Shown one piece after another: positions 30-63,250 of a DNA stretch of 64,000 bases; positions within the stretch are counted from its first letter, which is position 1, and each line of letters begins with the position of its first letter. The stretch lies in contig JARUPZ010000005.1 of the NCBI GenBank assembly GCA_031213475.1, forward strand, positions 10,053,260 through 10,117,259, read 5' to 3'. Position numbers and translations under genes: made by a program. The notes beneath the pieces were generated by a model. It was not told the DNA's origin. It was given only the letters and a program-made list of their open reading frames with translations, and ran no database searches. The DNA is from Nereocystis luetkeana. Lineage: Eukaryota > Sar > Phaeophyceae > Laminariales > Laminariaceae.

Positions 30-3000
30 ATGGTGGACTACCTGTCGGCACTGCTGTCGATCTGCTTCATGACGTTCCTGGGCTTCACCGACGACGTGCT
101 GGACCTTCCTTGGCGGTGAGGCGCTTGAAGGGGGGCTGCCCTTGTATTATTTATCTTGCTACTGCCACCACTACTATTGTTGTAGGCAAGCACTGTGTGT
201 ACTACTGATTGTACATTGGAGAAGGGCTGTACCGAGGGGGGTAGCACACTCGTACCACTGGATGTATGCTATCGATACTATTACGGGGGACCATAGTTAA
301 TAGGGCCTATGGTATACATAAAAACCTATATATTTAACCATTTTTACTAACAATATTTGGTCCTACTAACTATGGCCCCCCGTAATAGGAGAGGCGAGTT
401 TCATCGCTATCGAACAACGAAACGTACTGTACACCGTCTCGTTGGCTATCGCCTACCTGGTAGTATATAGTCAATTTCGTTGTAGCCCTCCCAATTATGA
501 ATATCTCCGTTTTTTTCTACGTACCCTTTTCAGGCAATGACAGCACTGCCCCGTTTTCAAAACCGTTTCCACGTCTTTGTGTTGTCTCTTACTGGACACA
601 TTTAAGACTGGGAGTGTGTACTTGTCTAGGAAAAATAACAGGAAAAAACAGGTGCCGCGTCTTATACGATGCCAAAATATGTATTTATGTTAGACACAAC
701 ACCCAGCGTGAGATATAAGTACTTCGAATTATTAAATTATTTAGTAGTAAGCTTTTGGCCATTTTATTTCGTATTGTGACACATCCCAGCCAAGCAAGCA
801 CGCACAGCAGACAACACAGCTCTGCAGCAGCATGCAGCAGGAGCAGCCACTGCTCTGCATCTGGAGCGCACAGATAGCAACGCCATGCAATCCAAACCCC
901 CAACCCAAGTACAACCCGCTTCTCGGTGTGGTATGAACTCGCAGCCACCACCCTACAACAGCGGCAATCTCGGTGGCGTTCACGGGCATCCAACACGCGT
1001 GACTCAACCGACAGCCTCTCGTAGGAACTGGAAATAGTCGACCACGGTAATTCCCCGACCACAGCGAGTACACACAACACAACGAAGACCACACTTCACG
1101 GCACAACTCGGCACACATGCCGTAATTCCAACGCCCCGCCCAACTAAAGGCCGACTGGCGGGTAGCAAGCGCTCACACGATGGCGACCCGCCCAGTGATC
1201 TCTGTGACCCAAGAGACCTGACACGCTCGTAGCGTGACTGACTGCTCTCTTGCTCAGCCTGCAGCGTGAAGAAAGTGATTGTCTGGTACAACTTTTCCCC
1301 CCGATGTGATCGTTTCCTCCGTATATACTGCGGTGCACAACTTCATAATGCCTCCCGTACGAATGCCTACATATATTCCGAGCGTTGAAGACCAGTCTGG
1401 CTCGAGGGCAAGCCCTGCTGTGCTGCTGCTGCTGCTGCTGTTGATGCTGCCATTCTATTTCTTACGTACTCCCAAAGCTGAGACACGCGCCGAAGATGCG
1501 AGCGAGGAACTCGTATTTTCAGGCTTTTGAGAGCCGCAGCTCCTTCTTCAAGTTTCCGGAGTGAATTACTGCCCGCTGTGTGAAGTTAGTCCTCACCTTG
1601 TATTGTGTATGTTGATCAAGAAAACTACCGACTGTGACTCCATGTTATTAAATCATTTATTCGCTTTTTGTGTCCAACAGAAACCGCTATGCTAAGTTTT
1701 AAACACTGTGATAAATGCGGCTATATTATGTACAATACTCTTATGAACTTTCTTGCTTACGGAAGGACCTATTATTTACGAATAACCGGAGTAGTTAATG
1801 CGTCTAGTGACCTGATGCGGATATGTTTTTGTGAAGTTGAGACGTGAAACGTGTACTGTAAAGTGTGCGTATATATTGTTTGTGTATGCTTCTGTGTAAA
1901 TTTGCCACAGTAGCGTGAGTAGTACTCCCATTCAGTGCTGTCGGTATGCTCGTTTTTATGTATGTATTTAAAACGAGGGTCTTATCTGCAAGCCTTTGTT
2001 TCCTTCCTTTATATTTTCCTCTTTTGTTGTTGTTGTTGTTGTTTTTTTGCGTTTGTTCCTCCAACGGCAAAAGGTATAAGCTCCTGCTACCGACTGTGGC
2101 AACCCTTCCGCTTCTCTGCGCCTACGATGGCAGCACGTCGGTCGTTGTACCCAGGTCAGTGTGTAGGAGTTCAGGGTAAAGGCGTTAGTGTTGGGGTTTC
2201 AAACGAGAATCGAGCTCCATACGATACCGATGGACGGAACACTTCGCGATACCCCCCCCCCCCCCCGCCCCCCCGCCCCCTCCCCACTATATAGACCCTC
2301 CCCCCCCCCCTCCAAACTACCTCGAACTCCCTCTCCCTCTGTTCCCTCCCACGTCCCCGCTATCTTGAATTTCCTTCGCCCTCTCCGCACTATTTCGATC
2401 CCCGCCCCCCTTCCTCCCCGCTATGTCGAACTCGTGTTGCTGCCCGATGAAGGCCGCTGGACCAGCTCATGGTCGCCGGGGGCGGAGGGGCGTTGACGCT
2501 TGTCGGTAGAGCCGTTTCGTCGGTATTCCCCTTGACCGTGCCCGGCGACGCTGCCGGGAGGCTTCTCCTAGACCTAGGTGACGGCTGCGAATGTGGAAGG
2601 TGTTAGGGAGTGGCAGCGGTGGTGGTGGTGGTGGTGGTGGGGTGTTGATGTTGGTGTTGGCGGTGTTGGTGTTGTGGTGGCGGTGATGGTGATGGTGGTG
2701 ATGGTGTTGGTGTTGGTGTTTGTGATGTTGGTGATGGTGATGGTGATGGTGTTGGTGTTTGTGATGTTGGTGATGGTGTTGGTGTTGGTGTTGGTGGTGT
2801 TGGCGTTGTGGTTGTTGTTGGTGTCAAGTGTTGATAGTGTTGTGGTTGTTGATGATGCTAAAAGTAGTGGCGTCAGCGGGGACGTGTTATACTTTCAGAC
2901 AGGGGGGGGGGGGGGTTGTAGCCGTTTGCCAACAGTCTGGTCTGGCCCGAAAAGGAGGATGAAACACACGGAGCACCCCGATGCGCTCGGAAGCACCTTT

Positions 3001-6000: not shown

Positions 6001-7432
6001 TCCTCCCTCTTTCATTTTTTTTTCATGCCCTCCGCAAAGATGCGGGCGTCTACGGTCATAGGACTACTGCCATGCTTGACATCCGTACCCCCCCCCCCCC
6101 CCTCCCCGCCTCCGCCACCCCTCCCCCCTCCCCCGACGATTTTTGTTGTTGTTGTGGGGTGAGCGAAACCCTCTGTTGCAGAAAACCACACCTTCTCCGC
6201 CATGCTGCTGCTGCCCTTTATTGCCACCACACTGGGGCTGCTCCGATATAACTGGTGGGTATCGTGCTATACTACTGATAGTGTATCTCACAGCCTCTTG
6301 CAGTTTCGGGGTCTCCTTGGTATGAAGGCGTTTTCCGGGTGTAAGTAGTACGTACGCGAAAGGTTGCTCCAATACCGTTGGTGGGTAACGCGCTATGCTG
6401 TTAGTGTGTATTCCACCTTCTTGTAGTTTCGGGGTTTCCTCGGTATGAAGGCGTTTTTGGGGTGTATGTAGTCCGTACCTGAGGGGTTGGTCCGATATAA
6501 CCGGTGGGTAACGCGCTGTATTATTAATATTAATGTTGTGTCACACAGCCTCCTGTAGTTTTGTATTTTTTTGCTCGGTGTAAGCGCTTTTCGGATGCGT
6601 GGTGCTTGTGTACGTACCAGGTAGTATATGTACGTGTGCACGTGTCGTGGACAGAACTTACACAGCTTCTTGCACTTGGTATTTTTGCCTTGTATGAAGG
6701 TTTCGGTTCGGATGTACGTACGTGTGCGCGTGTATACATACGTACGCATGTGACGAGTTTAGGCTGGCCGCCCACAATATTTCGTGTTTAATATATGTTC
6801 TATGTACACATGAAGACGTTTTTCGGGTGTATGTAGTACGTAGTACGTGAAGAGGACAGGCCGCACCCTGGCGATGGCTTCAACATCTCGCCCCCCTACC
6901 CCTCCCCCCTACCTCGACCCCCCGCCCGTCCCCCCCCCCACTCGACCCCCCCCCCACCCTCATCTCGACCCCCCCCCCACCCCTGCTCCGTCTCGAAAGG
7001 GATCCGTGGTCAATGGTCAAATGACTATTAATACGGCAAGTAACAAATGAGACCCCCCCCCCCCGCCACCTCCCTCCCTCTTGGCTCCCACGGCACACGC
7101 TTCTGCCTGGTGTATACTTGGACGGTTTAAAAAATCCGTGGAAACCGCCTCCGAAGCGCGGTGCCATCCCCCCCCCGCCACCTCCCTCCCTCTCGACTCC
7201 CACGGCACACGCTTCTGCCTGGTGTATACTTGGACGGTTTAAACAATCCGTGGAAACCGCCTCCGATGTGCGGTGCCATGTGATGCTTCAGGTATCCGGC
7301 GAGGGTGTTCGTGGGGGACACGTACTGCTACTTCGCGGGAATGACCTTTGCCGTGGTCGGCATCCACGGACACTTCAGCAAGACGCTCATACTCATGTTC
7401 ATGCCTCAGGTATACCCTCTCTTTTATTTTCC

Positions 7433-7463
<31 letters not shown>

Positions 7464-10400
7464 TGCACCCTCTCGTTTCGCGGGCAGATTACTCGGAATG
7501 ATAACTTGAAAACGTGTCTCTGTGAAGGGTGCTACAGTTTATATAAACACCGTAGGGACAGCACTTTTTTTGCCTTGCAAGGCAGATTTTTATGAGGAGC
7601 TGTCTGGATGGAGGAGCTACCACTCTGATCGATACTCGTATCAGAGCCCGGATGGTTCTTGCATCCCGGTCAACATCGTCTGTGTTTGACGACGCTTCTT
7701 CGATGTAAACCTTAACCTTTCTCGTCCGGGTGTGCGTACGTACTTACCATTTTTTTTTCTTACGGTCCGTTTTTCGGGTAACGCATAGTTCCTCAAACGG
7801 AAGAAGGGGCCTCAGAACAACTGCCAGCACCCCTATTATACGCGGGACCACATTAAATAGGGGACCTACGGTACACACAGAAACCTATATATTTCGCTAT
7901 TTTTACCATCAAAATTTGGTCCTATTTACTGTGGTCCCCACACAAAACCTATATATTTCGCTGTTTTTACTATCAAAATTCGGTCCTATTTACTGTGGCC
8001 CCGACTATCAAAATTTGGTCCTATTTACTATGGCCCCCATTATCAAAAATTGGTCCTATTTACTATGGTCCCCACTATCAAAATTTGGTCCTATTTACTA
8101 TGGCCCGGCCAACCACACGGTGGGGGCCATAGTAAATAGGACCAAATTTTGACAGTAAAAATAGCGAAATATGTAGGTTTTTGGAAACCACAACGAATAT
8201 GACCAAATATTGTTATTTAAAATATGGAAATACATACCTGGTACCTGGTAGGTTTTTGTGTGTACCGCAGGTCCTATTTACTATGGTCCCCCGTAATAGT
8301 ACAGTGCAGTAGTACTATTAATGAAAGGATTAGGGCAGTGGATACCCCGAGCCCCCCGGTGATAAGCCAAAACAACCTTGACCCTTTCAGGACCGCAGTC
8401 CCGTTTTGGGGACAAACTACTTAGAATTTGACGGGTTTGTTCCCAAAACGGGATTGCGATTCTAAACGGGTTGACTACACAACGCTCTCTTATCCGTAGC
8501 GGGGGAGCCATAGTTAATAGGACCTGTGGTATACATAAAAACCTATATATTCAACCATTTTTACTAACAATAGTTGGTCCTATTAAATATGGTCCCCCGT
8601 AATATACAGTTTTTACTACAGTATAAAGGTTGGACGTGCCGATTTGATCGCGTTAAAAAAACCCCAAATGCTCTTGTCTTTGAGCGCTCTTAAATCGGAG
8701 TACCCACTGCTGTATCCCCTGTATATAGGACTGCACTCCTATTTTGTGGGACTATTCGCCTGGAAGTAGAGTCAGATTTATGATACTGGTGCAGCAGTGC
8801 AGCGTTAAAAGGGTACTATTACGGGGGATCCTATTAAACAGGGCCTACGTTCCAGACAAAAACCTATATATTTCGCTATTTTTACCAACAATATTTGGTC
8901 CTATTAACTGTGGCCCTCCGTAATAACAGTGAAGATTAGTACTTACCTGGTACTTGGACGTGGGGTGGGTAGCAGGAGTGCGTATGCGGCACCTGGTGTT
9001 TCACGAGGTTTGTTGGCGGTGTTGTTAGGGGGGGGGGGGGGGAGGGTAGAAGGCTTACAGCACTGTTGATTGGGCTTAGGGTGGAGGATGTTTTTTGCAG
9101 CAGCAAGAAAAGGTGTTGCAAACACGCACCTGCTGAGTTACACAGTACGAGGTTGGTGTTGGTGTTGGGGTGGTGTTGGTGTCGGTGAGGGTGTTGGTGA
9201 TGGTGGTGCTGGTATTAGTAGTGTTGGTGATGGTGTTGTTGGTAGTGGTGGTATTGTTGGTGTTGGTGGTGTTGTTATTTGTTGCTGCTGCTGTTGTTGC
9301 TGCTGTTGTTATTATTGGTACTGCTGTTGTCGTTGTTCAGATCACATGAACTCATGGTCCCAAGGCAGGCTCCAAAACATTGTGGAAGAGATCCTTGCTA
9401 TATAGTGACGATCATTGTATCTACTGTTGTTATCCGTGTCGAAAATAACGCGTTCCATCGCCGCTGCGAACACGATCGCGACGAAGGTGGTATCCTTTTT
9501 TTCATATATTTCCATGAAGTTCATACCCTGGTATGTATTTTCGATCAGCGGAACATCCACATTTTTGTGCAACTTCTCCCTTAATAGGTACCCTGGTAAG
9601 AATTTACGCCCCCTCCCCTCCCCTCCCTCCCCCCCCCCCCCCCCCCTCTCCTCCCCTCCCATATATCCCGTGAAACTATTACTAATACGGTAAATGTCTC
9701 GATATCGCTTTTTTATCCCCCCCCCCCCCTCCTTCCCCCTCCTCCGACACGGCATTTGCTTTTGGGTCGAACGTGCGCTGTGTTCTGACAATCGACGGAT
9801 TCTCGTACTGTTTTTTTTCGTTCTTGTTTTCTCATCGCCGTGGCCAGGTGTTGAATTTTCTTCTGTCGTTACCCCAGCTGTTCAAGGTCCTGCCGTGCCC
9901 GAGACATCGCCTGCCCAGGTGCGAAACTCCAAACGAGAACACTGCGCGAGAATCCCCAACAACAACCAAAAAGGAAAAAACCCCCGCCAAAACACGCGTC
10001 CGAGGGCAGGAGAAGAAAAAAAGACAAAAACAACAACAGCAAGACTAAAAACCAAATAAAGAAAAATATCGAAACATGGGAAAAAAAATCGTTTCGCTTC
10101 CCTTCCCTTCCCTTCCCTTCCCTTCCCTTCCCTTCCCTTCCCTTCCCTTCCCTTCCCTTCCCTTCCCTTCCCTTCCCTTCCCTTCCCTTCCCTTCCCTTC
10201 CCTTCCCTTCCCTTCCCTTCCCTTCCCTTCCCTTCCCTTCCCTTCCCTTCCCTTCCCTTCCCTTCCCTTCCCTCCCCTTCCCTTTTGCTCTGCCTGGTGT
10301 GTGTGTGCTTCGCTTCGACTTGGCCAGGATGAACACCAACACCGGGATGCTCGTCCCGTCGACCATGCCGTACCACGGCATCAACCCTGCCTGGCGCCTC

Positions 10401-13400
10401 CTCAGGTCGGCACCAGGTACAAACAAAAAAATACCTATATACACCTGTTAATTTCTCCAGCACGATTAGACGCGAAGCTGCGAGGGGAGAACGGGCTAAG
10501 GTCTTCTCTCGCGATGAAAACGCCTTCCAAGGCACTACACCGTAGTGAGGAGGTGGGATAAGCGCTTGCTATAGTTGTACTAGAGAGGGAGCAGGGGGAA
10601 TAACGGCCAAGACGTTGGATAGGGCGGGAAAAAAACACGACAGACACCAACAGGGAGGGTGCTCTAAAAGGCATAAGGGTGGCTTTGAAAAGAGCTTGTC
10701 AAGACCTGTCCATGGACACATCGATCGCTCGTCCCGCTTTCGCCAGTGTCCAGAAAATCAGCTTGGGAATTTCGTCCCAAAGGGGGTGCCGTTCACGGTA
10801 CGGTATGCGTCCACGAAGCTACGCACGGGCACCGGCGTTCATGCTCCGGGAAGGGGTTGAAAGGTCGCACCGAGGAGATGATTGATGAGTGGTTCTTGGA
10901 TAAACTAAGTCGTAGCGTTAACCCTATATTCCAGAACCCAGTTGCGTACGTATGCAGTTTTTGTTTTTTGCGCGTCCGCGCGTCTGCTCGTCACCCAGGA
11001 AACTCTCGTGCGCACAAACGTGTCGCGTGAGACACCGGCCTTGTGGGGCGCGCCATGGGGCCAATTGGCTCTAATCGGTTGGTTTCTGGTGTGGGGGCGT
11101 GGTACCGCATAACTCGCAAAATGAGGTGACACATCCAACTCGGACGAACCTCAACCATGGCTGAACTTTTCGACAACGGGGTTTGGGATACGAACAACCG
11201 CCCAGCGACGCGCCCGTGGAAAAATATCGACAGGGAATCTTCCCAAAAGCCGCCATTATCGGTTGTGTGCGCGGCCCCCCTTTTGATCCTTTTAAGGCAA
11301 AAACTGCAGAGTCCCGTTTTTGGGACCAAAGTACTCAAACTTCTAAGTAGCTTGTCCCCATAACGGGACTGCAGCCCTACAGGGGCTTGAGGTTGTGGGG
11401 AGAAAATCGGCTCTATAAAATTTCATGCTGTATAGGGGGTGTGCTATTTTATCACCCATGTGTGATACGGGGTGTACGGCGGTTTTAGTGTCGGAGGTGC
11501 GGCCAGTCGCCGGATCAGATACTACTAGTCTTGGCGCAGGAGCGCGTTCTAGGCAAGGGGTCGGATAGGACAGTAGTTCCGGGGTAGGGACGCCTTGAGT
11601 CAACGGGTTTAACACCAATTCTTGTGCAGGGTCGCGTTCAAGTCAAGGCGTCAAGTGCTATGCATAGTGCCAGTTTAGGGACGCGGTTAGTCGAGGGGTT
11701 TTAGTACCAGTTCTTGTGTAGGGGAGGGTTCCGTCAAGAAGGTCAACCCGCGGTCTCGCTATCAAAATCATCTTCGCTCGTGCAAGCGCGGCACCGGCGA
11801 TGCCTTCCAAGGGTCGCATGCCCCCCCCGACCCCCCCCCCCCCCCCCTCCCCTACCCAGCTTCCCAAGACAACACGTGGACGGAAACAGTTTCAGTAGAA
11901 GCGCCTGATGGGTAGAGGAGAGGTACTCCTGCTATTTATAGCCTACTCAGTCAGTAGCCTACTGCTTACTCAGTCAGTAAGCCTACTACCTACTCAGTAG
12001 CCTACTGCCTACTCAGTCAGTAAGCCTACTGGCTACTCGGTCAGTAGCCTACTGCCTACTCAGTCAGTAGCCTACTGCCTACTCAGTCAGTAGCCTACTG
12101 CCTAATCAGTCAGTAGTCTACTGCCTAGTCAGTCAGTAGCCTACTGAGTCAGCGCTGACCGACTAGGCTAGCAGGCGATCTCTTCAATTCAACAGGTGAT
12201 ATTATTGGGGGCTTTTTCCGTCCGCTTGTTGTCTTGTGTGATGCGGGGCCACCCTACCGCCCCGCGCGCGTGGTGGCGGTGGCCGAGCGTGGATTGCTGA
12301 GCCTTTTGCAGGCCTGCGACATTCCTGTCGTTTTCGTACGGGCACGGGTCACGTACACGTTTTTTTTATGTTATCGTCTATTGTTTTTTCCCTGAACTAG
12401 GTTTATCGTCCACTGTTTTTTCCCTGAACTAGATTTCTTTTTTCCACTCCAGAATTGTTGTTGGACTCTACCTTGCAACCATGGGTTGGATTGTGACGAT
12501 GAGTTAGTTCATGTTGACATAACAACATCAACCACAAGTTTCTTGCTCTTCTTTCAGCCCACCCCGCGTGGTCGCTCGTTCGCGTGCGCGCGTGCTCGCG
12601 TGCTCACCTTTTGGCTGCCTGCGGCACGTGTGTGTTCTATCGACCCCGCGCAGATGACGAGGTGATCAACTTCACCCTGATCAACTTCGTCCTGCACGTC
12701 TTGGGTCCCATGCGAGAGCGCACCCTCTGCACTCTCCTGTTGGTGAGTGGCTCTGACCTCGGGGCATTTGTTAGAGTTACCCGTGTTCGAGGTTTCGTAG
12801 TCTGGTACTACTTGAGATACCAAGCGGCCGTTCTTGTCTGTACTATTTATTACGGGGGACCATAGTTAATAGGACCAAATATTGTTAGTAAACATGGTTC
12901 AATAGATAGGTTTTTATGTATACCATAGATCCTATTAACTATGGCCCCCCGTAGTAGTAGGGATGGAAGCTCCCGGTACAGGGTGCCGGAAATTACCGGT
13001 ATTATTCTTCGGCTGTAGGTAGCTCTAAAGCTGATTTGAGGTGTTTACCTATAGGTGACTGGTGATACCCCTGGGAGCTGCCATCCTTGGTATATACCTA
13101 ATCGTACTGTACGAGGAAAGGTGATACGCCGACTGTTGGTCGCAAAAGTCGAGTCGGGAAGCCCCCGCAGACACGCACACGGAGGCGTTTCTCCCACCCA
13201 CCCACCCACCGTGAAAACACTTCCATAAAGGTTGAGTAGGGTGGTGCAATCGCGTGACAACGTTTTCTTCAGCAGAAGGCAGATCCGCGCCTTGAGCTAT
13301 TTTGTTTTCGGCGGGCAGGAGCGAAGTGTCTGGTCTGGTGCTCTGTCTGCTGTGCTCGATGTGCTGCTATAGTTTTTGGCGGTGGTGCTAGGATTTGATG

Positions 13401-14691
13401 GCTTGGCGTTTTCAAAGCCCCCTTTTTTTGCGTGCGATGAGTGGCGCGCGGCCTACAAGTTGAGCTCGAATGTAACGCGTGATGACCCAATTATACGCGT
13501 GATGACCCAACTACGGTAAAATGTACGAACAAGGAAGGCAAAGGACATAAGGGAGTACTATTACGGGGGACCATAGTTAATAGGACCTATGGTATACATA
13601 AAAACCTATATATTTAACCATTTTTACTAACGATATTTCGTCCTATTAAGTATGGTCCCCCGTAATAGCTATCAACAGCCAAAAGAACAAGCAGGTTGTC
13701 CTCGGCCCGGCGCCTATTTGATAGGAAGGTTCGAACACGCTGGCGCCAACCGCGGCGTCAAACTATTGATTTTCGCGCTTGCGTAAAGGAAACGAGGTAA
13801 CACGAAATACAGAAAAAATAATCGGGCAGGTTGTTCACGGCGCGATGCGTAGAAGGGCTCGAACACACGGGGCGCCAAATGCAGCGTCACAAGGAGTTTT
13901 CGTGCTCGAGCGGGCCTCCGCTGGGGGCACCGAGGGACGCGGCTTAACCCTTTCAGGACCGCAGTCCCGTTCTGGGGAATAATCCACTCAAATTCACAGC
14001 AACTTGTCCCCAAAACGGGACTGCGGTCCTAGAAGGCTAACTTACGCTTTTAGGGCTGCAATCTCGTTGTTGGGATCAATTGGGGACGAATTACTTGGGA
14101 CTTGAGTGGTTTGCCCCCAAAACGGGACTGCTCTTCTAAAAGGGTCGCGAGGGGCTCACGCGATCGGGTCACCCCGACGGTTGACGGCAGGAGGGCGTAG
14201 ACAACGAGCTACGGCGAACCGCTGCAGCTCTAACCTTGACCTGCACAACACCTCCGCGCGAGAAGCTCCGCATTGGCTGCTGTAGCACAGGGTGCCCCCC
14301 CCCCCCCCCCCCCCCGACACACACCCTGCCCCATCCCTCGCGCCCCCTCAAAGCAAGCGTCTATTGAGAAACGTGCCGGAAAAGGCAGCCTCGCTCCTAT
14401 CGTACGCATTTGGCACTGATGGTCATTTCTGACCTCCCTGAGCCCTCGTTCAACCAACGTGCCCTACGACTACGACCATGCATGATATAGAGCACACCCC
14501 CCCCACCCGCCGCCCCCGCGCGCACTGCACCCCCCCTCCCCCCCCCCCCGTTTGCCATTACGCCTGGTGGCAATCGTTCTGAACCCTTCTGCTGCTGCTA
14601 CACGGGTCTTTGACAGGCGCTGCAGGCGGCGGCGTGCGCCTTCGGCTTCGTGATACGTTACTACCTTGCCGGCCTGGTCTATGGCGTATGA
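30..14691 (+). CDS. ALG7: UDP-GlcNAc:dolichyl-phosphate GlcNAc-1-phosphotransferase, 3' part (11 exons placed)
   Basis: Catalyses the first step of dolichol-linked N-glycan precursor synthesis in the ER membrane (DPAGT1/ALG7, PNPT family, multi-pass). Exons placed by GT-AG sites and reading phase: 30-115, 2074-2154, 2510-2577, 3771-3865, 5203-5269, 6182-6254, 7292-7409, 9848-9918, 10328-10405, 12654-12742, 14617-14691 (stop TGA). Family motifs seen in order: [13 protein letters not shown] (catalytic DD), [44 protein letters not shown], and a C-terminal hydrophobic end [19 protein letters not shown] that resembles plant and animal homologues. All junctions from exon 1 to exon 9 keep phase. Between 10405 and 12654 the phases do not match, so at least one further exon is missing from this model (a candidate open stretch is 12240-12350). 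The 5' exons lie upstream of the window. Introns are filled with MITEs and microsatellites. Identification is firm; the exact exon 5, 10 and missing-exon borders are inferred. Confidence 0.93.
281..385 (+). mobile_element. PAL1 MITE, complete
   Basis: 105 bp, flanked by TA on both sides. Ends are TTACGGGGGACCATAGTTAA and its inverted form ending CCCCCGTAA. The centre is ACATAAAAACCTATATATTTAACC..TTACTAACAATATTTGG. It is the reference copy for the other PAL1 entries. Confidence 0.85.
2600..2825 (+). repeat. (GGTGTT)/(GGTGAT) microsatellite
   Basis: Mixed hexamer GTTGGT / GATGGT repeats for about 220 bp in the ALG7 intron after exon 3. The same type occurs at 9150-9330 and 25613-25720. Confidence 0.9.
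3060..3300. repeat. GATC-rich diverged repeat
   Basis: Clusters of GATCTATCTATC, GAGATCTATG, CAGATCCCACCTAGGATA and GAGCTAGATCACACAGATC. The same kind of sequence recurs at 5350-5710, 16990-17330, 25800-26060, 29220-29500 and 36470-36750. Confidence 0.5.
4118..4400 (-). repeat. PC-A dispersed repeat, poly-C bounded
   Basis: Between two G runs on this strand. Shared blocks: TGTACTCGAYAGGAGATATR, GACCATAGACCCTCGCATCC, GACGGAGCATGTCGGG, GGCGAGTCGCATGAAGGGTG, CTACTAAGAACCGC. In the opposite sense the unit ends GAGTACA followed by poly-C. Confidence 0.75.
4507..4564 (+). repeat. (GGGTC)n short tandem repeat
   Basis: Degenerate pentamer GGGTC/GGGTT/GGATC. Not telomeric: the unit varies and is internal. 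Confidence 0.8.
4952..5040 (+). repeat. PC-B dispersed repeat with C-rich end
   Basis: ACTCCGTCTCGAAAGCGATGC, GGTCAAATGACTAAGGCGAG, then a C-rich tract. Confidence 0.65.
5105..5197 (+). repeat. (CGGAACGAAC)n tandem repeat before ALG7 exon 5
   Basis: Pentamer-based CGAAA/CGGAA/CGAAC tract ending five bases before the acceptor of exon 5. That acceptor therefore lacks a usual pyrimidine tract. Confidence 0.85.
5350..5710. repeat. GATC-rich diverged repeat, split by PAL2
   Basis: GATTATCTAGTGATC, CAGATCATCTAGTG, then after the PAL2 copy GCTAGATCGTGCAG, GATGATCTAGATCATC and GATCTATCTGATCTG. Confidence 0.5.
5433..5526. mobile_element. PAL2 palindromic repeat
   Basis: Inverted repeat of the type TTAACCCTT..AGGACTGCAGTCCCGTTTTGGGGACAAA, with the reverse ending in AAAAGGTTAA. 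About 95 bp. The ends and the GGGGACAAAC..GTTTGTCCCC core pair. Confidence 0.7.
6983..7063 (+). repeat. PC-B dispersed repeat with poly-C end
   Basis: GCTCCGTCTCGAAAGGGATC, GGTCAAATGACTATTAATACG, AACAAATGAGAC then C12. Relative to the other PC-B copies it has an extra ATTAAT (scar at 7026). Confidence 0.7.
7064..7283 (+). repeat. Tandem duplication of about 112 bp upstream of ALG7 exon 7
   Basis: Units begin CGCCACCTCCCTCCCTC at 7064 and 7176; both contain CACACGCTTCTGCCTGGTG and TATACTTGGACGGTTTAAA. The second ends 8 bp before the exon acceptor. Confidence 0.88.
7835..8296. mobile_element. Composite PAL1 array
   Basis: PAL1 ends flank an internally amplified half: the unit ATCAAAATTTGGTCCTATTTACTATGGCCCC-like (about 37 bp) is repeated five times between 7909 and 8110, followed by an inverted half. 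Two tandem CCTGGTA insertions lie at 8235-8250. Confidence 0.75.
8378..8474. mobile_element. PAL2 palindromic repeat
   Basis: TTGACCCTTTCAGGACCGCAG to CTAAACGGGTTGA; a well preserved hairpin. Confidence 0.75.
8499..8602 (+). mobile_element. PAL1 MITE
   Basis: TA-flanked copy. The left terminus is changed to GCGGGGGAGCC; the right terminus GTCCCCCGTAA is intact. Confidence 0.8.
8819..8923 (+). mobile_element. PAL1 MITE, complete
   Basis: TTACGGGGGATCC to CCCTCCGTAA, flanked by TA, 105 bp. In an ALG7 intron. Confidence 0.85.
9150..9335 (+). repeat. (GGTGTT)n and (TGCTGT)n microsatellite
   Basis: GTTGGTGTTGG-type hexamers pass into TGCTGCTGTTGT triplets. Confidence 0.9.
10097..10288 (+). repeat. 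(TTCCC)n microsatellite
   Basis: About 190 bp of nearly pure TTCCC pentamer between ALG7 exons 8 and 9; it opens long false ORFs on both strands. Confidence 0.97.
10440..10550 (+). mobile_element. SINE-2 fragment in an ALG7 intron
   Basis: CACGATTAGACGCGAAGCTG, GGGGAGAACGGGCTAAGGTC and TCTCTCGCGATGAAAACGCC match the SINE-2 body with changes. It lies just after exon 9 of ALG7. Confidence 0.45.
11283..11390. mobile_element. PAL2 palindromic repeat, diverged
   Basis: TTGATCCTTTTAAGG..CTGCAGAGTCCCGTTTTTGGGACCAAAG, then CTTGTCCCCATAACGGGACTGCAGCCC. Confidence 0.6.
11470..11765 (+). repeat. Degenerate minisatellite, unit about 75 bp
   Basis: Three diverged units share GGGACGC.TTGAGTC-like starts, ACCAATTCTTGTGCAGGG / ACCAGTTCTTGTGTAGGG and TTCAAGTCAAGG / TCCGTCAAGAAGG. 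Confidence 0.5.
11930..12160 (+). repeat. Minisatellite GCCTACTGCCTACTCAGTCA
   Basis: Units of 16-22 bp, TAGCCTACTGCCTACTCAGTC, repeated about ten times. The ACTCAGTCAGTAGCCTACT core can form short hairpins. Confidence 0.92.
12850..12954 (-). mobile_element. PAL1 MITE, complete
   Basis: 105 bp, opposite orientation. The right terminus is GTAG instead of GTAA. It lies 107 bp after ALG7 exon 10. Confidence 0.8.
13561..13665 (+). mobile_element. PAL1 MITE, complete
   Basis: Inserted at GTACTA; 105 bp, nearly identical to 281-385. Confidence 0.85.
13944..14147. mobile_element. Two PAL2 repeats in tandem
   Basis: 13944-14040 is well preserved; 14042-14147 is more diverged. Both carry the CAGTCCCGTT..GGGGA / CCCCAAAACGGGACTG pairing. 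Confidence 0.7.
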
Positions 14692-15206: not shown

Positions 15207-15621
15207 AACGCACGCCGGAATAATACGATTTACAGTAAACCCTGGTGGCTGCGCATGTGATGTGTGCGTGTGTGTGCGTGCGTTGGCGTTACGACGGAAG
15301 GCGGCTTAGCTCGTGGTGGGGTCCATGTGTTTGCTCGACTCCGCACTCCGATCTCCATGTTGATGGTACAACGGGGCCATCGTAGTAGTGTCAGCAGCGC
15401 CAGACGGACTACTCAGAGCCATCCCACGTACTATTTACATTAGGGTTGGGGGGGGATACTTCATTTTTATGTGCCAATAGGTTGCTTCCTCTTCCTCGCA
15501 CGCGGAGCTCTACGAGGTATTAATAGTCATTACCCGGACTGGTAATTTGTTGTGGAACATTGTTCGTATGCGCAACCTGGCCGAAAAACCCGACTGGGTA
15601 TAGGTCAACAAGGCTGGGGCT

Positions 15622-16102: not shown

Positions 16103-16370
16103 CATTAAAAAGGATACTTCCCTCTGCGTGCATGCAGTCCCTCGGTCGGTAGATGACCCCCCCCGGTCACAGTCACAAAAAAAAGTTGATCTCCTCCTCG
16201 GACAGATCAGATACATCATGATCTACGTAGATCGTCTATTTTCTCACCTGGGTTGCGAGAGGCCGTGCAGAATATTCGTCGTATTAATAGTACAGGACCC
16301 AACCCAGCGAAAACATGTGCTACTCGTACGGCTGTACGAGAGCATGAGCTCTACTGCAGATCATGCAGCT

Positions 16371-16475
16371 ATTGCGGGGGACCATAGTAAACAGGACCAA
16401 ATGATTCTATTAATAGTAATAATAGGGAAATATACATGTTTTGAGCGTACCGCAGGTCCTATTTACTATGTTCGC
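16371..16475 (-). mobile_element. PAL1 MITE, diverged
   Basis: ATTGCGGGGGACCATAGTAAAC at the left; the right end has decayed (TATGTTCGCAAATA). It contains a TATTAATA scar at 16408. Confidence 0.6.
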
Positions 16476-22200: not shown

Positions 22201-22813
22201 TGATGCTTCTACTCCTTGCAAATACCAGGCACGGATACGAAGGGCGTGCACCCCACACGGCTCTAGACTCTAGACTGCTGCACGTAGACAACAGAGGGCA
22301 CACCCATACACTACTGTATAGGCACCAGCCACAGCCAGCCAGCCTGAACAGCAGCAGAGCAGAGGTCGTCAAGTACTTCAAGTCTCAAGTCTCGAGGAAA
22401 AGCCGTCACTCGTCAATACAATCTACAGTCCGAAACGGGTTCCTTGCGTAGGGAAGTTGCACCGCGTATTTAGTTCCACTATCTCGATCTGATGAAGAAG
22501 TTACACCGCATTTCTACAGTATTCCATGATTTCGATTTAGTTTATTCGATGATGGAACTGAAGGATGAAGAATGAAGCATGAGTTATTAATAGTTGCTTT
22601 TGCGCCGCACATCACGAAGCCCAGCTCCGCTCTCCGCTCCGCTCACTGCTCATCACCAACAACGGGCCCTTTAGCTCGGGAGAGACAGGCGCGTGTCGTG
22701 AACCTCAGCTTGCCAAGGATCGTGGCCATAGGTGGGTGCAATGTCATTGTCGGGTATTGCTGCTTGTGTCGGGCAGGTATGTGTCGCCCAGGCAGGTCGG
22801 TGATTAGCGATTC

Positions 22814-22960: not shown

Positions 22961-23503
22961 GTTGGTGAGACTTTCTTTATCCTCCCCTCAGGAACTACCA
23001 GGTATAGGTTACGGCGCTCAACACACCTATAATACTATTAATAGGACTGCAGCAGCAATGTGAGCATGATAGACATACCTTATTAGCTCTATTTACTGCA
23101 CAGCTGCAATACAGCAGCAGTACGCACTCCGTTTCAGCAGAACAGCTACCGGTAGTAGTTATTAATACCAGGTACCTGGTACCATGGTACCTGGTACCCT
23201 GGTAGTAAATAGTGTTTCGTTGTGTCCAGAACGGCACCCCGTGAATCGCTTTTTTAGAGCGGTGCACAGAGCATACCTGAACAGCCTACCGACCTGGAAG
23301 ATCCGGGTTCCCAGATGGTAATGGGAACTCCCTCTTGGACACCTCACATATTATACTCGTACCAGTTGCTTTTACTTCTCTCGCTGCCGTGGCGCGAGGA
23401 AACCGTCTTTGGTGATGTCATTCACGAGCACGTACGTACCTCTTACCTGGTACTGGTATGTCCGTACGTTAAAATAGACCAGATTTAAACTACTGCACTA
23501 CTA

Positions 23504-23694
23504 TTACGGGGGACCTATAGTAAATAGGGAACCTATAGTAAATAGGGGACCTATAGTAAATAGGACCAAATATTGTCATCATAGTAGCACTATGTACGAG
23601 TAAATGTAAATACCAGGTACCAGGTACCAAGTATATATTTTTGTGTGTACCGTAGGTCCTACCTGGAATTTACTATTAATAGGGTCCTCCGTAA
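23504..23694 (-). mobile_element. PAL1 MITE enlarged to 191 bp
   Basis: Both PAL1 termini and TA flanks are present, but the copy contains a triplicated CCTATAGTAAATAGGG unit, tandem TACCAGGTA insertions (23611-23626), a CCTGGAA insertion and a TATTAATA (23674). Confidence 0.75.
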
Positions 23695-23730
23695 TACTAT
23701 TAATACGGTACCTGGTACGTACGGGGACAT

Positions 23731-24005: not shown

Positions 24006-24110
24006 TTACGGGGGACCATAGTAAATAGGACCAAATATGGTGAGTAAAAATAGGTAAATATATAGGTTTTTGTATGTACCATAGGTCCTATTAACTATGG
24101 CCCCCCGTAA
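24006..24110 (-). mobile_element. PAL1 MITE, complete
   Basis: 105 bp, TA-flanked, in the divergent gene interval. Confidence 0.85.
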
Positions 24111-36802: not shown

Positions 36803-36907
36803 TTACGGGGGACCATAGTTAATAGGACCAAGTGTTGTTAGTAAAAACGGTTGAATATATAGCTTTTTATCTATACCATAGGTCCTATTAACTATGGTCC
36901 CCCGTAA
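36803..36907 (-). mobile_element. PAL1 MITE, complete
   Basis: 105 bp, inserted into a run of TTATCTAGG repeats, so both flanks are the same repeat and the TA target is clear. Confidence 0.88.
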
Positions 36908-38333: not shown

Positions 38334-38799
38334 TATGACGTCCTATATGACGCGAGTATTAATAGTCGTACTCTAATACAATGATTATTGTTTCTCAATG
38401 ATTGTTTGTCCTACCGACAAGAATATACCGTAGATCATCGTAGATCTACCGACATCGGAACAAAATACGAACGGACGTGACAACCTTGTTGTGTTCAACC
38501 CCCCCCCCCACCCTCGATGGGGGCCTGCGCATAAAAAGTACCCACTCGATGGAAGCTATTCTGAAGTCAATGACACCAATCAATCAATCAAATGAATGAG
38601 AAGGAAGGAGCAAATACAGCAAATAAAGTAGACAAGCCGAAAGTTGGCACGGAAGGGGGGTAGACTTGGTGCATGGGTTTCCTTTTGTTTCCGAGGTTTT
38701 CTTCTTTCGGGAAAGTTATTAATGATCCATGTTGAAGATCATGCTGCACATTGTCGGATGGCAAAATAAATAATAATAATAATCAATCCATCAATGCTC

Positions 38800-46544: not shown

Positions 46545-48679
46545 CTACACGGTCATTATATTTACGCCCAGAGTAGTCCATACTTAGTATATAAGTACCA
46601 GGTACAATGATTTTATTCTCCATCTGTCTATGTACTTCGAAGTATAGTGTTTGTTCCAACTATCACACCATCCCCATGAAAAAGGATTCCAGAAACCATT
46701 GAGTCCGGGCATACCTGGCAGGTGTTACCTATCAGACCTGAGCACTTGACGACACCAGGCCAGAAACGTGAACGCCCTTCACGAAATCTCTACTGCGAAT
46801 ACTTCTACCCCCCCTTTTTCCCAACTCCTGTACGTACGTGATGTACTTCCCGCCACCCCCTTGCAGCTGCTACTATTAATAATAGGGCGTTCTACGATAG
46901 AAGTTCACCCTATTGTTTCTAAGGCTCCTCTCTTGAGGAGCTCCATACCTCACCCGAGAACTGACTTCAAGGAAAACAAAATTGCATCCCGATAAATAAT
47001 CCCATGGCCCAAGTATGCAAAAACGCCAATTATTTTCGAAACAAGAATGGCATTCTGACGAGTTTGGGTTAAGAAGGCCCGTCATCCAGATTTTTTTTGG
47101 CGGAAATGTGCTACCTCTTTCGTAGAACGGGTCTACCCTGTCACCTTCTGCCGCAAGGGCCAGGTCCTGTCCCCGCAACTTCTTCCAAACAAAGCTGTAT
47201 ACGCGTGGGTGGAGCCTGTGACGTAAAAGCACGACACACTCCTGTGATGTATACGTATGTGCGTGGAACCTGCCTGTGGCAAGAAAATACGGCCCAGCTG
47301 CTGGTTCTCTTCTCACTTACGGGATAGCGGCGGGCGGCGCGATTTTTCGAATGTGAAGCGTGTGCGACAGCCGCAGTACATACACACATCCCCTTTTTAC
47401 CTGGTACATATAGTCCACCGCATCATGGCACCACTAAAGCGCAGGATCGTCCGTACAGTGATACTACTGGTTTCATCACTCCTTCACCCATGCCTCGTGT
47501 CACTATTATTGTTGTGCTAGAACTGGCGATTCATCCACGCGGTGTTACGCGCTGAAGGATGGGCGTTTATTCAGGCTGAACTTAACGGGTCACAACCTGC
47601 TTGCTGCTCGTAATAAGAAGATGCTGATGCTGGTATACACATTTCTTGGGCAATTGTGAGGGGCAGGAAACGAGGCTCAACACCTGCTACAAAATGTGCG
47701 CGAAGGTTGCCCCTCCCCTTCCGTCCCCCCAAGACGCGCACATAGTTTATGGATACTGTAAGGCAGATATACTGTTATTGCTTTCTGCGACACAGCAGCT
47801 GTGCAAGAGAATAACAACTTTCTGGGAAGTTTCCGAGGCTCCTCACCCGAGTAGCTCTATAGTGTTGAGTGGTAGTAATTCTGTAGTATATGTAATAAAT
47901 CGTAAGTCGCCCAAACACTGACCTTGAGCAAAACAAATTGTCGGGTTGCGCGAACGAACTTCTTCGAGGTCATGTTTCGCGCGAGATATTGGGCTCCTGG
48001 TGTGAGGACAATATAAAATAAGGCACCACCGGGAGAATAAATGATGAAATGTTGAACTTACTGTAATAATAGCAGTAGAATGGCAACCCACGATGTGGGA
48101 CACACACCATTATTTGGAGATAGTGTGGCAACATCTTTGTAGTATGTAGCCAAAGGATAAGACGACCACCCACCAACTCGCCCAACACGACACATATTTT
48201 ACAGCTGCATGTGCCGTACTGACCATTGTGCGCTGCGACCTACCCCCCGGGAATGGATGGTACGTGTGTATACTATACAGTATGTTTACTCGCGTTCATT
48301 CGAAAAAATCCGGGTAATGGTCTAAGCAAATTGGACATTCACGGAATATTAAAACTCTCCCCCTCGCGGGAAACGCCTCAATACAAACTGGGAATCCCTG
48401 AAAGGGGATGGTATAGGTCAACCCCCTGCATCACAGATATTGTCGGTTGCCGCTCGCAAGTGAGCGACGCTCGGACATTAAGCCAACATGAAGCGAACGG
48501 TCGACGGCCGTAACTCGTTCGTCATAACATGCATCCTCAAGCGACAATGACAACCCAGTACGGATCCTTTTCTAACTGCCAGTGTACACTTGACATTATC
48601 GTTCTTGCAAGTGAAGTACTACCATACTTCTTACCAAACACGATTACCCTGAACTGGAACCATCGGAGGAGCGTCCTAT
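46545..48679. other. Gene-free stretch
   Basis: Mixed sequence without a legible gene; TATTAATA at 46874, TACCWGGTA at 46596 and 47398. Confidence 0.4.
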
Positions 48680-49055: not shown

Positions 49056-50284
49056 TTAGCTGGCCACTTGGGACCACCCCGTACGCTCTTACTAGAGCAC
49101 ACAGCAGGTACTTCGTACGTACCAGGAGCACATTACTCCTACAATGGGCAGATAATTTGGGCAGTGCGTTGGGCCACGCTGTCATTTGTACGACGTACAC
49201 AACAAACAAGAACATCCCATGTAACACCCCCCCCTCGCCCCAACGGCAGTTTCACGCGCGGACATATATATGGTGCAGGCGAATCGAGCACGGAACGGAG
49301 GCCTTTTTATACGGGGGGAGTGCTATGCGGCTTCGGAGAGGAGTATATCGGCACTGCGACACGCGAAGATTGCAACCACCTCACTGGCAGTCGATATCAA
49401 TGCCCGGTAGGCCGGCGGCGGGGGGGGGGGGGGGGGCGCGCGAAAGGGCATGCTGCCTAGGACACTGAAGCCCGGCATTGAGTCGTCGCCGTCTCTAGAT
49501 CAGGTCGGGTCAACATACTCACGCGCCTGCGAGGTAGCAGCAGCCTGTGGTCTGCTGCAACGGGAGCAACAGGTTGACTCACGACACGTATTTTATTAAG
49601 GAAGCGTGGTAATCTTAGCTACCACGTAAGTTTCATTTTTATCATTCCGTCGAAGGGGATAGCATACTAAAATAAAATAAGAATAGTCGTCATGTATGTT
49701 ATTGCTCGCCAGGCCATTAGCGGTAGATATCATAGGGTAGCTTGGATCTCTCCGCCTGTCTATGTAATACCGTTTTGTGCAACGCTTTGCTGTCACGATT
49801 ATTGTGCTGCAACTGCTGCCACTATTAATAATAATAATAGTAGTCTTGGTTCGTTTCTGTACTTTGAGTTTTTTTTTTTTTTTGTGCGTTTTTCTGCTTG
49901 GGTGCATACGATAGATAACCCCCGTCGATTGGTATACATCACGCTAAAAACAAAACATACCCAATACATTGAACACTTTCTGGCCCCTGTTGAGAAGTTT
50001 TACGTGCCCATGGACTTTTCTGGGCAATTTTTGGTCCACTTGCAGCCATGCCAATTATAGGGCACTATGTTGGTAACAGCCGAGAGGGCCTGACTTCGGA
50101 CGTTTCGAACAAAAAAAAGGGATGCCAAACGAATTGTCGAATTGTGTCGATCTAAAGTATACGTCGGGAAACTCTTGACGAGAGCTTTCGACTGTCGAAT
50201 GAGCCTACCCATCAGAATTTTCGCAACGCTTCACGCAATAAGCTCCTGGGTGGCGTGATGATATTACGAGGCGTATACTTGGCA
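49056..50284. other. Gene-free stretch
   Basis: Contains a G16-type run (49421-49436), AT-rich simple sequence and a T15 run (49869-49883). No gene seen. Confidence 0.4.
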
Positions 50285-50745: not shown

Positions 50746-51090
50746 TAAGCTGGTTGCAGGTCTCCTCGGTGGCTTGGTGGGTGGTTGGCGTGCCAACTAT
50801 TAATAGTGTGAGATCAGCTTCGTGGGTTCGAGTCTCACCGCATGCATACTCGTATGGACTCTTTCTTGCATACAAATTGATTAGCCAGCGGAAAGGGCGA
50901 GAGCATGAGCAACATTCGACGAAAATCGACGAGCAGTGGGAATACTGAACCCTCTGCGCCAAAAAAATGAAGGCACGCCCCGGGGGGGAGAAGGGACGAC
51001 ACATACCTGTGGCCACGGCTTGTCCAGAAGATCGCTGAGGGTAAAGATCTCCTACAGGTTAATCTGGGAAGTAGTGATGAAAAAAAAGAT
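50746..51090 (+). mobile_element. SINE-1 copy, tRNA-headed
   Basis: A-box-like GGTGGCTTGGTGGGTGG and a strong B box GGGTTCGAGTCTCACCG; body homologous to 37893-38220 throughout. Compared with that copy it carries an extra ATTAAT within CAACTATTAATAGTG (50798-50805), one of the proposed excision scars. Confidence 0.75.
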
Positions 51091-54366: not shown

Positions 54367-55546
54367 CCAAGGTTGTGTTCGGTAAGGTACATACCGAGGC
54401 GTACCAGCGGTAATGTACCTCCGGTATACCGGTACCGAGAAGTCCGGTACCTTCGGTATGATCTCCATACCGGTACCGAGGACTTCGGTACGTTCGGTAG
54501 GTCCATACCGGTATCGGGAAGTTCGGTACGTTCGGTACGCAGTTCCTACCGGTACCGGTGGTGCCGGTACAACAATCCGTACCGGTAACGAGATGTTCGG
54601 TATGTTCGGTATGATCTCCATACCGGTACCGAGAAGTTCGGTACGTTCGGTACGAGGTCCATACCGGTACCGGGAAGTTCGGTACGTTCGGTACGTCGTC
54701 CGTACCGGTACCGAGCATACCGGTAGTTCGGTACGATGTTCATACCGGTACCGAGCGTATACCAGTACCGAGAATACCGGTACCGGATGCTCCGAAGAAT
54801 ATCCGCTCGTGTCTTCCCGGGCGTTTTTCGGGGGAAGACAAGGACTTGTTGGAGGCTGAAAGCACCTTCGACCTCCTCAACAACACGGAGGCGCCGACAG
54901 CCGATGGCATGTCCGCTGGCATGTCCGCTGGCATGGAGGAGGAATAGGTTGTCGTTTCAACTCTCTGTGTTCGACTTTCAATGGGGAGAGTCTCGGATTT
55001 ACTCCGTATAACATGAATACTATAATATTAATGCTGTTTTAATATTAATAGATGTTTTTTTGTTTGGTTTCAATGTTGCACGCACACATACAAATATTTT
55101 TGTTTTTCCACGTCATGCATTTTGAAATTGACATTTTGGGCGGGCAATATGAGAGACGCTCCGCACACACACACCACCGGTATCGCCGGTATCACCGGTA
55201 CCGGTACCGGTACGGGCTTCCATACCATACCGAGAAGTTCGGCACCTTTTCGGTATGATCTCCATACCGGTACCGAGGACTTCGGTACGTTCGGTACAAG
55301 GTCCATACCGGTACCGGGAAGTTCGGTACGTTCGGTACGCAGTTCGTACCGGTACCGGTGGTGCCGGTATAACAATCCGTACCGGTACCGAGATGTTCGG
55401 TATGTTCGGTAAGATCTCCATACCGGTACCGAGAAGTTCGGTATGTTCGGTACGTCGTCCATACCGGTACCGAGAAGTTCGGTACGTTCGGTACGATGTC
55501 CGTACCGGTACCGAGCATACCGGTACCTTACCGAACACAACCTTGG
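54367..55546. mobile_element. 1,180-bp inverted-terminal-repeat element built of GGTACCG minisatellite, inside LINE copy 2
   Basis: The ends 54367-54390 (CCAAGGTTGTGTTCGG...) and 55523-55546 are perfect 24-bp inverted repeats. The hexamer CAGTTT flanks both sides (54361-54366 and 55547-55552) as a target duplication; 7 bp is possible because of a shared G. Removing the element and one hexamer leaves the LINE frame open. Inside are two directly repeated arms (about 54391-54785 and 55207-55522) of a roughly 40-bp unit rich in CATACCGGTACCG and GTTCGGTACGTTCGGTAC, flanking a unique core of about 400 bp. No transposase is present, so it is non-autonomous. The superfamily is not recognised. Confidence 0.85.
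54837..54947 (+). CDS. Possible captured gene end inside the inverted-repeat element
   Basis: The unique core of the element holds an open stretch ending ...STFDLLNNTEAPTADG, a MSAG repeat and EEE before TAG at 54945-54947, followed by AT-rich sequence like a 3' UTR. The acidic, low-complexity tail looks protein-like and unlike the arms. It may be the last exon of a host gene picked up by the element, or chance. No family is recognised. Confidence 0.25.
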   Translation, partial: DKDLLEAESTFDLLNNTEAPTADGMSAGMSAGMEEE

Positions 55547-60100: not shown

Positions 60101-60437
60101 ACCGCGCGTGCATAACGTGCTGGTTTCTACTCGGCAGCCCTACCACTCGGTGCCCCCGAGCAACTGCCGCTCGGCATCCCCCGCACATCACGCCGTCTTG
60201 ACTGGTGCAAATGGATGCACGGAGTCGCCCTACGCCCCCCGATGCTGATCCTCCCCCCTCGCCACCTTCTCCTTCCCTGGGGAGTCCTCTCTCTTCGCCA
60301 CCTCCCCCTCTCCATCCAGGATCCGAACGAAGCTCGCTGCCCCCTCTGAAGGATCGAAGAATCGGCACGGACACTGGTTGTGCTGGATGTCGACGAATAG
60401 AAAGAACGGTAAAATTTGAAGCAGAACGCGCACACAC
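57124..60437 (-). pseudogene. Non-LTR-type retrotransposon: zinc finger, reverse transcriptase, probable endonuclease-like C-terminus
   Basis: One - strand reading frame from 60437 to 57882 with three in-frame stops (59019, about 58936, 58428), then a -1 shift at the overlapping ATGA (57882-57885) into the last 253 codons. Near the N-terminus is a Cys/His cluster (CGGCRAAV...HARCVV...LICATRGC). RT motifs: LVLTDCSNAFNTVKW (motif A), SSGVQQGGAMGPALF (motif B), and AFAYLDGISIG (motif C, with Gly in place of the second catalytic Asp). The C-terminal ORF carries AILLDITHADPQA..., EARKRNYY and a FGRLGKEG segment, resembling the restriction-like nuclease domain found at the end of some retrotransposons. 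That last assignment is tentative. The lineage differs from the LINE at 53-56 kb. Confidence 0.75.
60357..60417 (+). repeat. Retroelement end motif
   Basis: Same block as 56825; here it sits, in the opposite sense, at the 5' end of the - strand retrotransposon. Confidence 0.7.
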
Positions 60438-60439: not shown

Positions 60440-61127
60440 AGACGACGTCTTTTCGATTCGAGCCGACCTGCGAATTTTGAGTTTTCGATTAAAATAACAA
60501 GTTCAAGCATTGTCGATTCCAACGAAAGTCCACAGCACAAACTAAAAAACAAGTCGAAAATGATCTCCGATCGCAATGGTTTGAAAAACCCTAAGCCTCG
60601 CTGTGGCATTTGTCAAGGGGCACCAGAAAAACTTACCCATGACAATAGAAATAGCAGTACTGCTGTACTCTGTGTGATCGCTGATATTCGTGTGGTAGTA
60701 AGGTTCGATTGCTCCTTTTTCACTGCACATATATATCCGCGAGTCTTCACTCTGACAGCACTCCAGATAGCAGGCAGGCGTGTTCCTCTTTCTTTCGTGT
60801 TCACGACTGCCGTGCGTTTCGTACGGTGCAGGCAGCACTCCAGACAGCAGCCGCAGTAGTCAGCAGCCACAACCTGGTTAGTGGTGGGAACGGGGATATA
60901 CTCCATTTTGTTATAGTTGAGAGGATATACCCGCGGCCATGTTAGTTCAGTTTTGCACATTGGTTTTATTTTGTGTGCGCTTTCTTCGTCTCGTGCATTT
61001 TTAGGCAGCCGAGTTCGATTTTTTGTGGTTTTTCGGGTCTTCCTAGGGCTCCAGCACCTTTGTGTGACCACGGACTCCTTCGGCAGAGAGTTAATGTGAG
61101 AACAACAACAACAACTATTATTAATAT
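60440..61127. other. Stretch between retrotransposon and TAC array
   Basis: No gene seen. It ends with GAGAGTTAATGTGAGAAC and (CAA)n at 61101-61115, a LINE-like tail. Confidence 0.4.
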
Positions 61128-61170: not shown

Positions 61171-62420
<1,250 letters not shown>

Positions 62421-62459
62421 CGACATCCAGCACAACCAGTGTCCGTGCCGATTCTTCAA
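62421..62459 (-). repeat. Retroelement end motif
   Basis: Reverse of the block at 56825, next to A-rich sequence (62400-62420). Confidence 0.7.
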
Positions 62460-63250
62460 TCCTAGAAGAGATACAAGCATGCATGTGTGTTTCCACGTTA
62501 GTTAGTTTCCACTACGTGCATGCGTGTTTCCATCTGTTTCCATCTACCCATTGTCAATATTAATACTCGTATTATTAATACCATTAATTCTACCCTACGA
62601 CCGGATACAGGTAATAATCCGGCGCGAGGTCGACCAAACAAAGACTCTGTTTGATACGTCGCCCAAATCGAATCAAAATGGTAAAAGTACTATTAATACT
62701 GCCGTTCGTTTTCTTTTTTTGCATTTGCACAAAAACATACGCAGCGCATTAATAGTATCCTCCTGTCCACTCATTGTCATCCACGACGATGCGACAGCCA
62801 ATCAAAACCCTGCGAGCACCCAATCCACCCAGGACAGACAAGGAGAACGAATGTCATGCGTGGCTAACAGAAGAAGAAACGAGCTTTTGTCTGACGTGTC
62901 ACACAGCTTGCATTTTGAGTTTCAACCATTCAATCCTTCATACTCACAGCTGACTGACGTATTGTTACAGCTTTATGAAACCTACGTACAATACGTAGAT
63001 TTACAGCAGTATTAATGGTAGAAACCTACGTTCTCCACAGAGACGACCACAGGAGACGAGACGCCCTGCCTTTTCACTTCGCAACTTGTCTCTACTGCAG
63101 TATACCTGTCCACAAATTCTCCACAACGGAAGAGCGACACATCAGCTTCATTCTGCGCATACAGGGTACACTTGGGCTAGCGGGCGCAGTCGCCACACCA
63201 CCCGCTGTGATTGCTGAGAGAGGAGAGGTGACAGGCAACGCAAAACAAGC
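62460..63250 (+). promoter_or_regulatory. Probable upstream region of the ZIP-like gene
   Basis: AT-rich, with three TATTAATA scars (62558, 62573, 62691) and a CCAAT motif (62799). The open frame here has no protein character. Confidence 0.3.

Follow-up and report, generated by a model that had tools for sequence, protein, structure and literature searches.

Why should a single eight-base word, TATTAATA, recur 21 times in a 64,000-nucleotide stretch of Nereocystis luetkeana DNA (hereafter the window, C5:10053260-10117259 of an examined genome of 465 Mb in 1987 contigs) that also holds copies of a short palindromic element, PAL1? A preliminary description of this DNA had read the octamer as the scar left by excision of PAL1 and had expected about one occurrence by chance. 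Every coordinate on its list of 21 carries an exact TATTAATA (Table 1), and the estimate of chance occurrence was sound, as 100 dinucleotide shuffles of the window gave a mean of 0.74 and a maximum of 4, and a second-order Markov model an expectation of 0.32. We argue that PAL1 is a miniature inverted-repeat transposable element (MITE) of 105 bp, a non-autonomous transposon of the cut-and-paste type, which inserts at TA and duplicates it, and that TATTAATA is mostly its excision footprint, closed by near-uniform joining after Tc1/mariner-like cuts; we put the probability of this explanation as a whole at roughly 0.88.

Abundance of the octamer and structure of PAL1

Among octamers occurring at least eight times in the window, only three registers of a TAC array are enriched above TATTAATA. 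Enrichment beyond the window was examined in part, on a grid of 20 pieces of 10 kb at fixed spacing along contigs C1 and C2 (200 kb), and was found there too, with 31 occurrences against 1.04 expected. In this grid TATTAATA is the most enriched of the 256 palindromic octamers and of the 256 A/T-only octamers, and it ranks ninth among all octamers seen at least 15 times, the words ahead of it belonging to arrays or high-copy repeats or, in the case of CTATTAAT, overlapping the octamer itself; a palindrome of the same letters, TAATATTA, occurs 11 times against 1.04 expected. The count of 31 includes three sites in a satellite (L015) and one copy of a repeat called R1, leaving 27 per 200 kb, which scales crudely to the order of 60,000 sites in the genome, a rough figure from two sampled contigs. 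One-mismatch neighbours of the octamer are enriched as well, mostly about 2- to 6-fold (TAATAATA/TATTATTA about 16-fold), which fits ageing scars and equally fits local arrays.

The earlier account of PAL1 as an element of about 105 bp, with ends TTACGGGGG and CCCCCGTAA and TA outside both, proved accurate, and 14 of the 25 end pairs in window and grid (a set that includes a few chance long pairs) measure exactly 105 bp. PAL1 is short, has terminal inverted repeats and is present in many copies, as expected of a MITE, and the 200-kb grid holds 11 full PAL1-like copies, which its scars exceed about 2.5 to 3 fold. TA duplication and empty sites are evident in a 9-bp array and in empty and filled copies of a GTC/PC-B repeat, the only two settings in which filled and empty copies could be matched: for 37 PAL1 end pairs compared with the pool of sampled DNA, of which six had a spanning match, there was no clear plain-TA empty site. 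Both the TA target and its duplication are traits of Tc1/mariner elements, and membership in that group is unproven because no transposase was found: PF13358 had no match in the 465-Mb genome with 30 candidates scored (its control matched in 3 of 14 genomes), and PF01359 had none either (its control matched in no genome). An 18-base PAL1 end had no exact match in viral contigs.

Several features of the surrounding DNA may be recorded here. At L018:4056-4271 two PAL1 copies stand back to back with one TA common to both, and window positions 45932-46545 hold a 306-bp tandem duplication (99% match) in which a degenerate PAL1-like element of 130 bp is present twice. Searches of the window returned no Rfam match and no tRNA, and four of its open reading frames matched no Pfam family; the reading frame at 59019-60437 on the minus strand (472 aa, no Pfam match) resembles part of a retroelement.

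Table 1. PAL1 copies and exact octamers in the window (positions counted from its first letter)
Feature	Position	Remark
PAL1 copy, 105 bp, TA each side	281..385	end pair
TATTAATA	6522..6529	exact; pool matches: 1 plain TA, 1 other
TATTAATA scar, PC-B/GTC repeat	7026..7033	plain TA in 13 other copies, PAL1 in others
PAL1 copy, 105 bp	8819..8923	end pair
PAL1 copy, 105 bp	12850..12954	inverted partner of 13561-13665 copy
PAL1 copy, 105 bp	13561..13665	end pair
TATTAATA	15518..15525	exact match
TATTAATA	16282..16289	exact match
TATTAATA scar within PAL1-related element	16408..16415	plain TA in 42/65 pool matches
TATTAATA	22585..22592	exact match
TATTAATA	23036..23043	exact match
TATTAATA	23160..23167	exact match
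PAL1-like copy, 191 bp	23504..23694	internal tandem repeat near left end, scar near right end
TATTAATA scar within PAL1-like copy	23674..23681	plain TA in 10/11 pool matches
TATTAATA just beyond right end of PAL1-like copy 23504..23694	23698..23705	exact match
PAL1 copy, 105 bp	24006..24110	end pair
PAL1 copy, 105 bp	31766..31870	end pair
PAL1 copy inside 9-bp tandem array	36803..36907	empty site from array is a single plain TA
TATTAATA	38357..38364	exact match
TATTAATA after TAC	46874..46881	exact match
TATTAATA after AC	49823..49830	exact match
TATTAATA after AC	50798..50805	exact; one pool match, ambiguous
TATTAATA	55043..55050	exact match
TATTAATA	61119..61126	exact match
TATTAATA, first TAC-array interruption	61432..61439	exact match
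TATTAATA, second TAC-array interruption	61819..61826	exact match
TATTAATA	62558..62565	exact match
TATTAATA	62573..62580	exact match
TATTAATA after TAC	62691..62698	exact match

Empty, filled and scarred sites

The GTC/PC-B repeat presents one and the same TA in three states. In sampled DNA, copies of the family were defined by a GGTC..GAC core with at most four substitutions (n=14); plain TA stands in 13 of the 14 copies and TATTAATA in the one at 7026, in agreement with the six extra bases described there before. Genome-wide, GGTCATACGACTATTAATACGGCCATG with up to two mismatches had 11 matches, and none in a reversed control. Eight of the 11 hold the exact octamer (on C2, C3, C4 (two), C11, C15, C16 and C18) and the other three read CTAC, TAAA and TGTA between the TAs, a share that is not an unbiased spectrum because the mismatch limit favours TTAA. 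Alignments longer than 150 bp, at 74-92% identity, join 15 of the 55 pairs among these loci and take in seven of the eight scarred ones, the eighth (L052, C4:798246) matching by its core alone; the loci are dispersed and diverged copies, and some of their scars may be of shared descent. A PAL1 end at the same TA, GGTCATACGACTATTACGGGGG with up to two mismatches, had 41 matches genome-wide and none in the control. Twenty of these were read, with family membership judged by eye from the flanks: the PAL1 right end is present in 18 (it was not found in L061 and L072), the left flank places 15 in the repeat family and both flanks place 12 (L060, L064-L069, L071, L073-L076), and five are chance neighbours (L062, L070, L077-L079). 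The comparison of PAL1-present, empty and scarred alleles that had been suggested for strains was run on these paralogous copies and returned all three states, and because the TA of this family occurs empty, filled or marked, most TATTAATA are best read as fossils of PAL1 excision. Such paralogous copies, as distinct from an observed excision, point to an end-derived footprint of Tc1/mariner type.

The TAC array at window positions 61171-62113 consists of 87, 127 and 96 perfect units (310), and the suggestion that it is perfect once the extra bases are removed is correct, its only two interruptions both being TATTAA. Two substitutions per site, giving TAT TAA, were considered as their origin and set aside in favour of insertion, which fits better because two identical interruptions stand among 310 otherwise perfect units. 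Elsewhere, the position of scars relative to homologues with a plain TA was tested in part, since 12 of the 52 octamers of window and grid had a spanning homologue in the sampled-DNA pool and 40 had none, and it held at several sites. No class outnumbers plain TA at 7026, 16408, 23674, 6522 and L019_3152, and the spanning matches identify the octamer at 23674 as extra bases within a PAL1-like copy, as had been described. The site L012_5319 had 20 matches with the octamer and one other; three sites in L015 each had 101 or 102 other satellite variants and two matches with the octamer, with one plain TA for two of the sites; and L012_2882, L023_4371 and 50798 were classed as 'other' under the rule used, the matches of L023_4371 being, by eye, apparently plain TA beside a one-base gap. 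Elements of piggyBac or Kolobok type have TTAA as their duplicated target, and such a target was rejected for PAL1, because the empty sites seen show a plain TA and lack TTAA, and PAL1 copies are flanked by TA.

Some TATTAATA do not record an excision of their own: R1 carries the octamer in copies and the L015 satellite probably by substitution, and the reading of the octamer as an excision scar of PAL1, though supported, does not extend to these as independent events. R1 (L012:5229-5417 and genome-wide) is a high-copy repeat with 1795 first-look candidates, 40 of them scored; the octamer is found in 22 of 23 aligned copies, a share biased upward because 20 of the 23 were chosen among the best matches to an octamer-holding query, and we take it to be a single ancient sequence multiplied by copying, which may itself have begun as a scar. 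At L015:700-9600 lies a satellite array with TATTGATA and TATTAATA variants, in which neighbouring units read TATTGATA, one substitution away, and the octamer has probably arisen by substitution rather than excision. This satellite, the high share in R1 and the palindromic, A/T-only make-up of TATTAATA would also suit a regulatory or structural motif of the host, or a product of point mutation, unrelated to excision. Such an origin is hardly credible, however, given that the octamer forms a six-base insertion where homologous, dispersed copies of a repeat have a plain TA, is the sole interruption of the TAC array and has the same target context as PAL1, and that the reversed word ATAATTAT reaches only 3 in the grid against 1.11 expected.

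That target context was compared in 92 scar and 30 PAL1 flanks, 8 low-complexity flanks and 2 duplicate satellite copies having been dropped, and in both sets T is preferred at position -3, A at position -2 and C at position -1. Many scars had been said to follow AC, and 27 of the 92 do so against 1501 of 27672 background TAs (5.4%; p 3e-13), as do 12 of the 30 PAL1 flanks (p 2e-8 against the same background); TAC precedes the TA in 15/92 scars, 11/30 PAL1 flanks and 556/27672 background sites. Scars and PAL1 insertions have the target TAC-TA in common, independently of the homology argument. Where sites can be compared, the scar proves to be inserted at TA, and it stands at PAL1's repeat position and in its target context. 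Since the scar holds four element bases only, it could be left by any family whose terminal bases are identical, and the scars might stem from a different family, rare or lost today, with TT...AA ends and a TAC-TA target; that grid scars outnumber full PAL1 copies, 31 to 11 per 200 kb, would agree with this. Against such a source, PAL1 has the same target preference and is found at exactly the TA where the GTC repeat bears its scar, and TATTACGGGGG is the commonest 11-mer starting TATT in the 264 kb of window and grid (31 occurrences); we judge another family very unlikely.

Under PAL1 excision, scars may in turn receive insertions. In L003, PAL1 is inserted inside the R1 repeat's own TATTAATA, and among the matches listed, which reach into C3, at least 100 PAL1 ends directly adjoin an intact TATTAATA (0 mismatches). 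The full totals of this search, which allow two mismatches, were 5872 and 5823, with 35 and 40 for the control, and are not scar counts.

Footprint spectrum and a proposed route of joining

A survey of window and grid (264 kb), in which 0-6 bases of each PAL1 end were joined, found the TTAA footprint, TATTAATA, 104 times against 2.7 expected on both strands. The next, TATTAGTAATA, has a ratio of 28 on one occurrence counting both strands; joins of TTA+AA or TT+TAA (TATTAAATA/TATTTAATA) occur 7 times against 0.94 (both strands), TAGTAATA/TATTACTA 22 against 3.7 TATTACATA/TATGTAATA 7 against 1.6, TATTATA 54 against 22 and TATTTA 185 against 97. After AC, TATTAATA occurs 29 times against 0.13 expected, and one-end footprints reach at most 3.8 times expectation (TTA 2 and TAA 4 against 1.05 each; TT 7 and AA 9 against 4.6 each); controls in which ATAT or CCGG replaces the TTAA core stand at 7.8 and 6.5 times expected, on 1 and 3 cases. 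Blunt joins of 3+3 or 4+4 bases after AC numbered 0 in the 264 kb. After TAC, TTAA is found 18 times against 0.04, the highest one-end forms being TAA (3 against 0.29) and TT (5 against 1.27). End-derived footprints other than TTAA are much rarer, and some of them are mildly enriched, on few cases. Two bases of each end had been proposed as the residue: the letters TTAA fit, but 1+3, 2+2 and 3+1 bases all give the same letters.

This spectrum also bears on deletion by the host without any transposase, in which the palindrome is lost through hairpin slippage or cleavage and rejoined via the TA of TATTA/TAATA. PAL1 has a strong predicted hairpin (-41 kcal/mol, folded as RNA), and a two-base TA overlap, worked by hand, does yield TATTAATA; slippage should, however, equally yield TAATA, TATTA and other TA pairings, and AC+TAATA occurs 19 times against 13.2 expected. 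AC+TATTA occurs 75 times against 13.2, a count from which the TATTA product is not cleanly separated because TATTA sits in every scar (29 such sites). We regard host deletion as quite unlikely.

For excision by a transposase, we propose the following course. PAL1 would insert at TA, preferring TAC-TA (by symmetry TA-GTA), and duplicate the TA; on its exit, the break would usually be closed in one way, so that TA becomes TA-TTAA-TA, with six extra bases. The cuts would be made by a Tc1/mariner-like transposase encoded elsewhere, most likely in the manner of Sleeping Beauty and mariner, by nicks 3 nt inside each end that leave TTA as 3' overhangs. The terminal TA of one overhang could pair with that of the other, and filling of the single-base gaps would then give TAT-TA-ATA, which is TATTAATA. 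Full pairing of TTA would leave a T:T mismatch and hence TATTATA or TATAATA, both of which are uncommon. Alternatively, 2-nt TT overhangs might be filled in and joined bluntly without pairing; both models give the same letters, and the 3-nt model is favoured. Scars would multiply further through copying of host repeats, and PAL1 could re-insert into them.

A more tentative idea, to which we give slightly less than an even chance, is that PAL1 ends are built for uniform self-repair, the TA of the 3-nt overhangs annealing to produce one 6-bp insertion (TA + TTAA) and thereby a countable fossil record of excision. If so, the scar would preserve the reading frame and add a stop codon in just one frame out of three, so that a jump would cost the host little; fossil excisions, some 60,000 in order of magnitude by the crude scaling above, would outnumber surviving PAL1 copies; and scars, with two TAs each, would be targets for re-insertion.

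Relation to known systems

Stowaway elements end in CTCCCTCC, and the PAL1 ends, TTACGGGGG/CCCCCGTAA, do not agree with this. DNA transposons often leave footprints of mixed kinds on excision, and in rice, for example, only 8 of 94 putative excisions are given as perfect and the rest as having deletions, filler or both (PMC4423477). With a single, exact and searchable eight-base footprint, excisions could be tallied within one genome, with no need to compare strains, and excision-to-copy ratios and host repair rules would become directly measurable. The octamer was not found in the literature sampled, from which we claim no absence from print.

Stowaway and plant mariner-like elements resemble PAL1 in being small, palindromic and TA-flanked, in leaving end pieces between two TAs on excision and in inserting beside old footprints (PMC1925063, PMC4561436); Stowaway footprints in a beta-amylase intron are of several kinds, among them TA...GTA and TACTCC...AGTA, whereas one four-base footprint dominates for PAL1. 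Sleeping Beauty and mariner share with PAL1 the TA target, staggered cuts with 3' overhangs (of 3 nt in those systems) and a small footprint, but the Sleeping Beauty footprint is the 3-nt overhang and the PAL1 scar has four bases (PMC7827188). ISY100, of IS630 type, also targets TA and cuts two nucleotides in, but is bacterial with a known transposase, and no such genomic scars appear in the part of its description consulted (PMC2170065). A parallel in repair may be drawn with mPing/Tourist, where overhang microhomology likewise steers excision repair toward a uniform product, but the target site duplication is 3 bp and supplies that microhomology, and excision is mostly precise (PMC4561436); in PAL1 it would be the terminal sequence of the element that supplies it.
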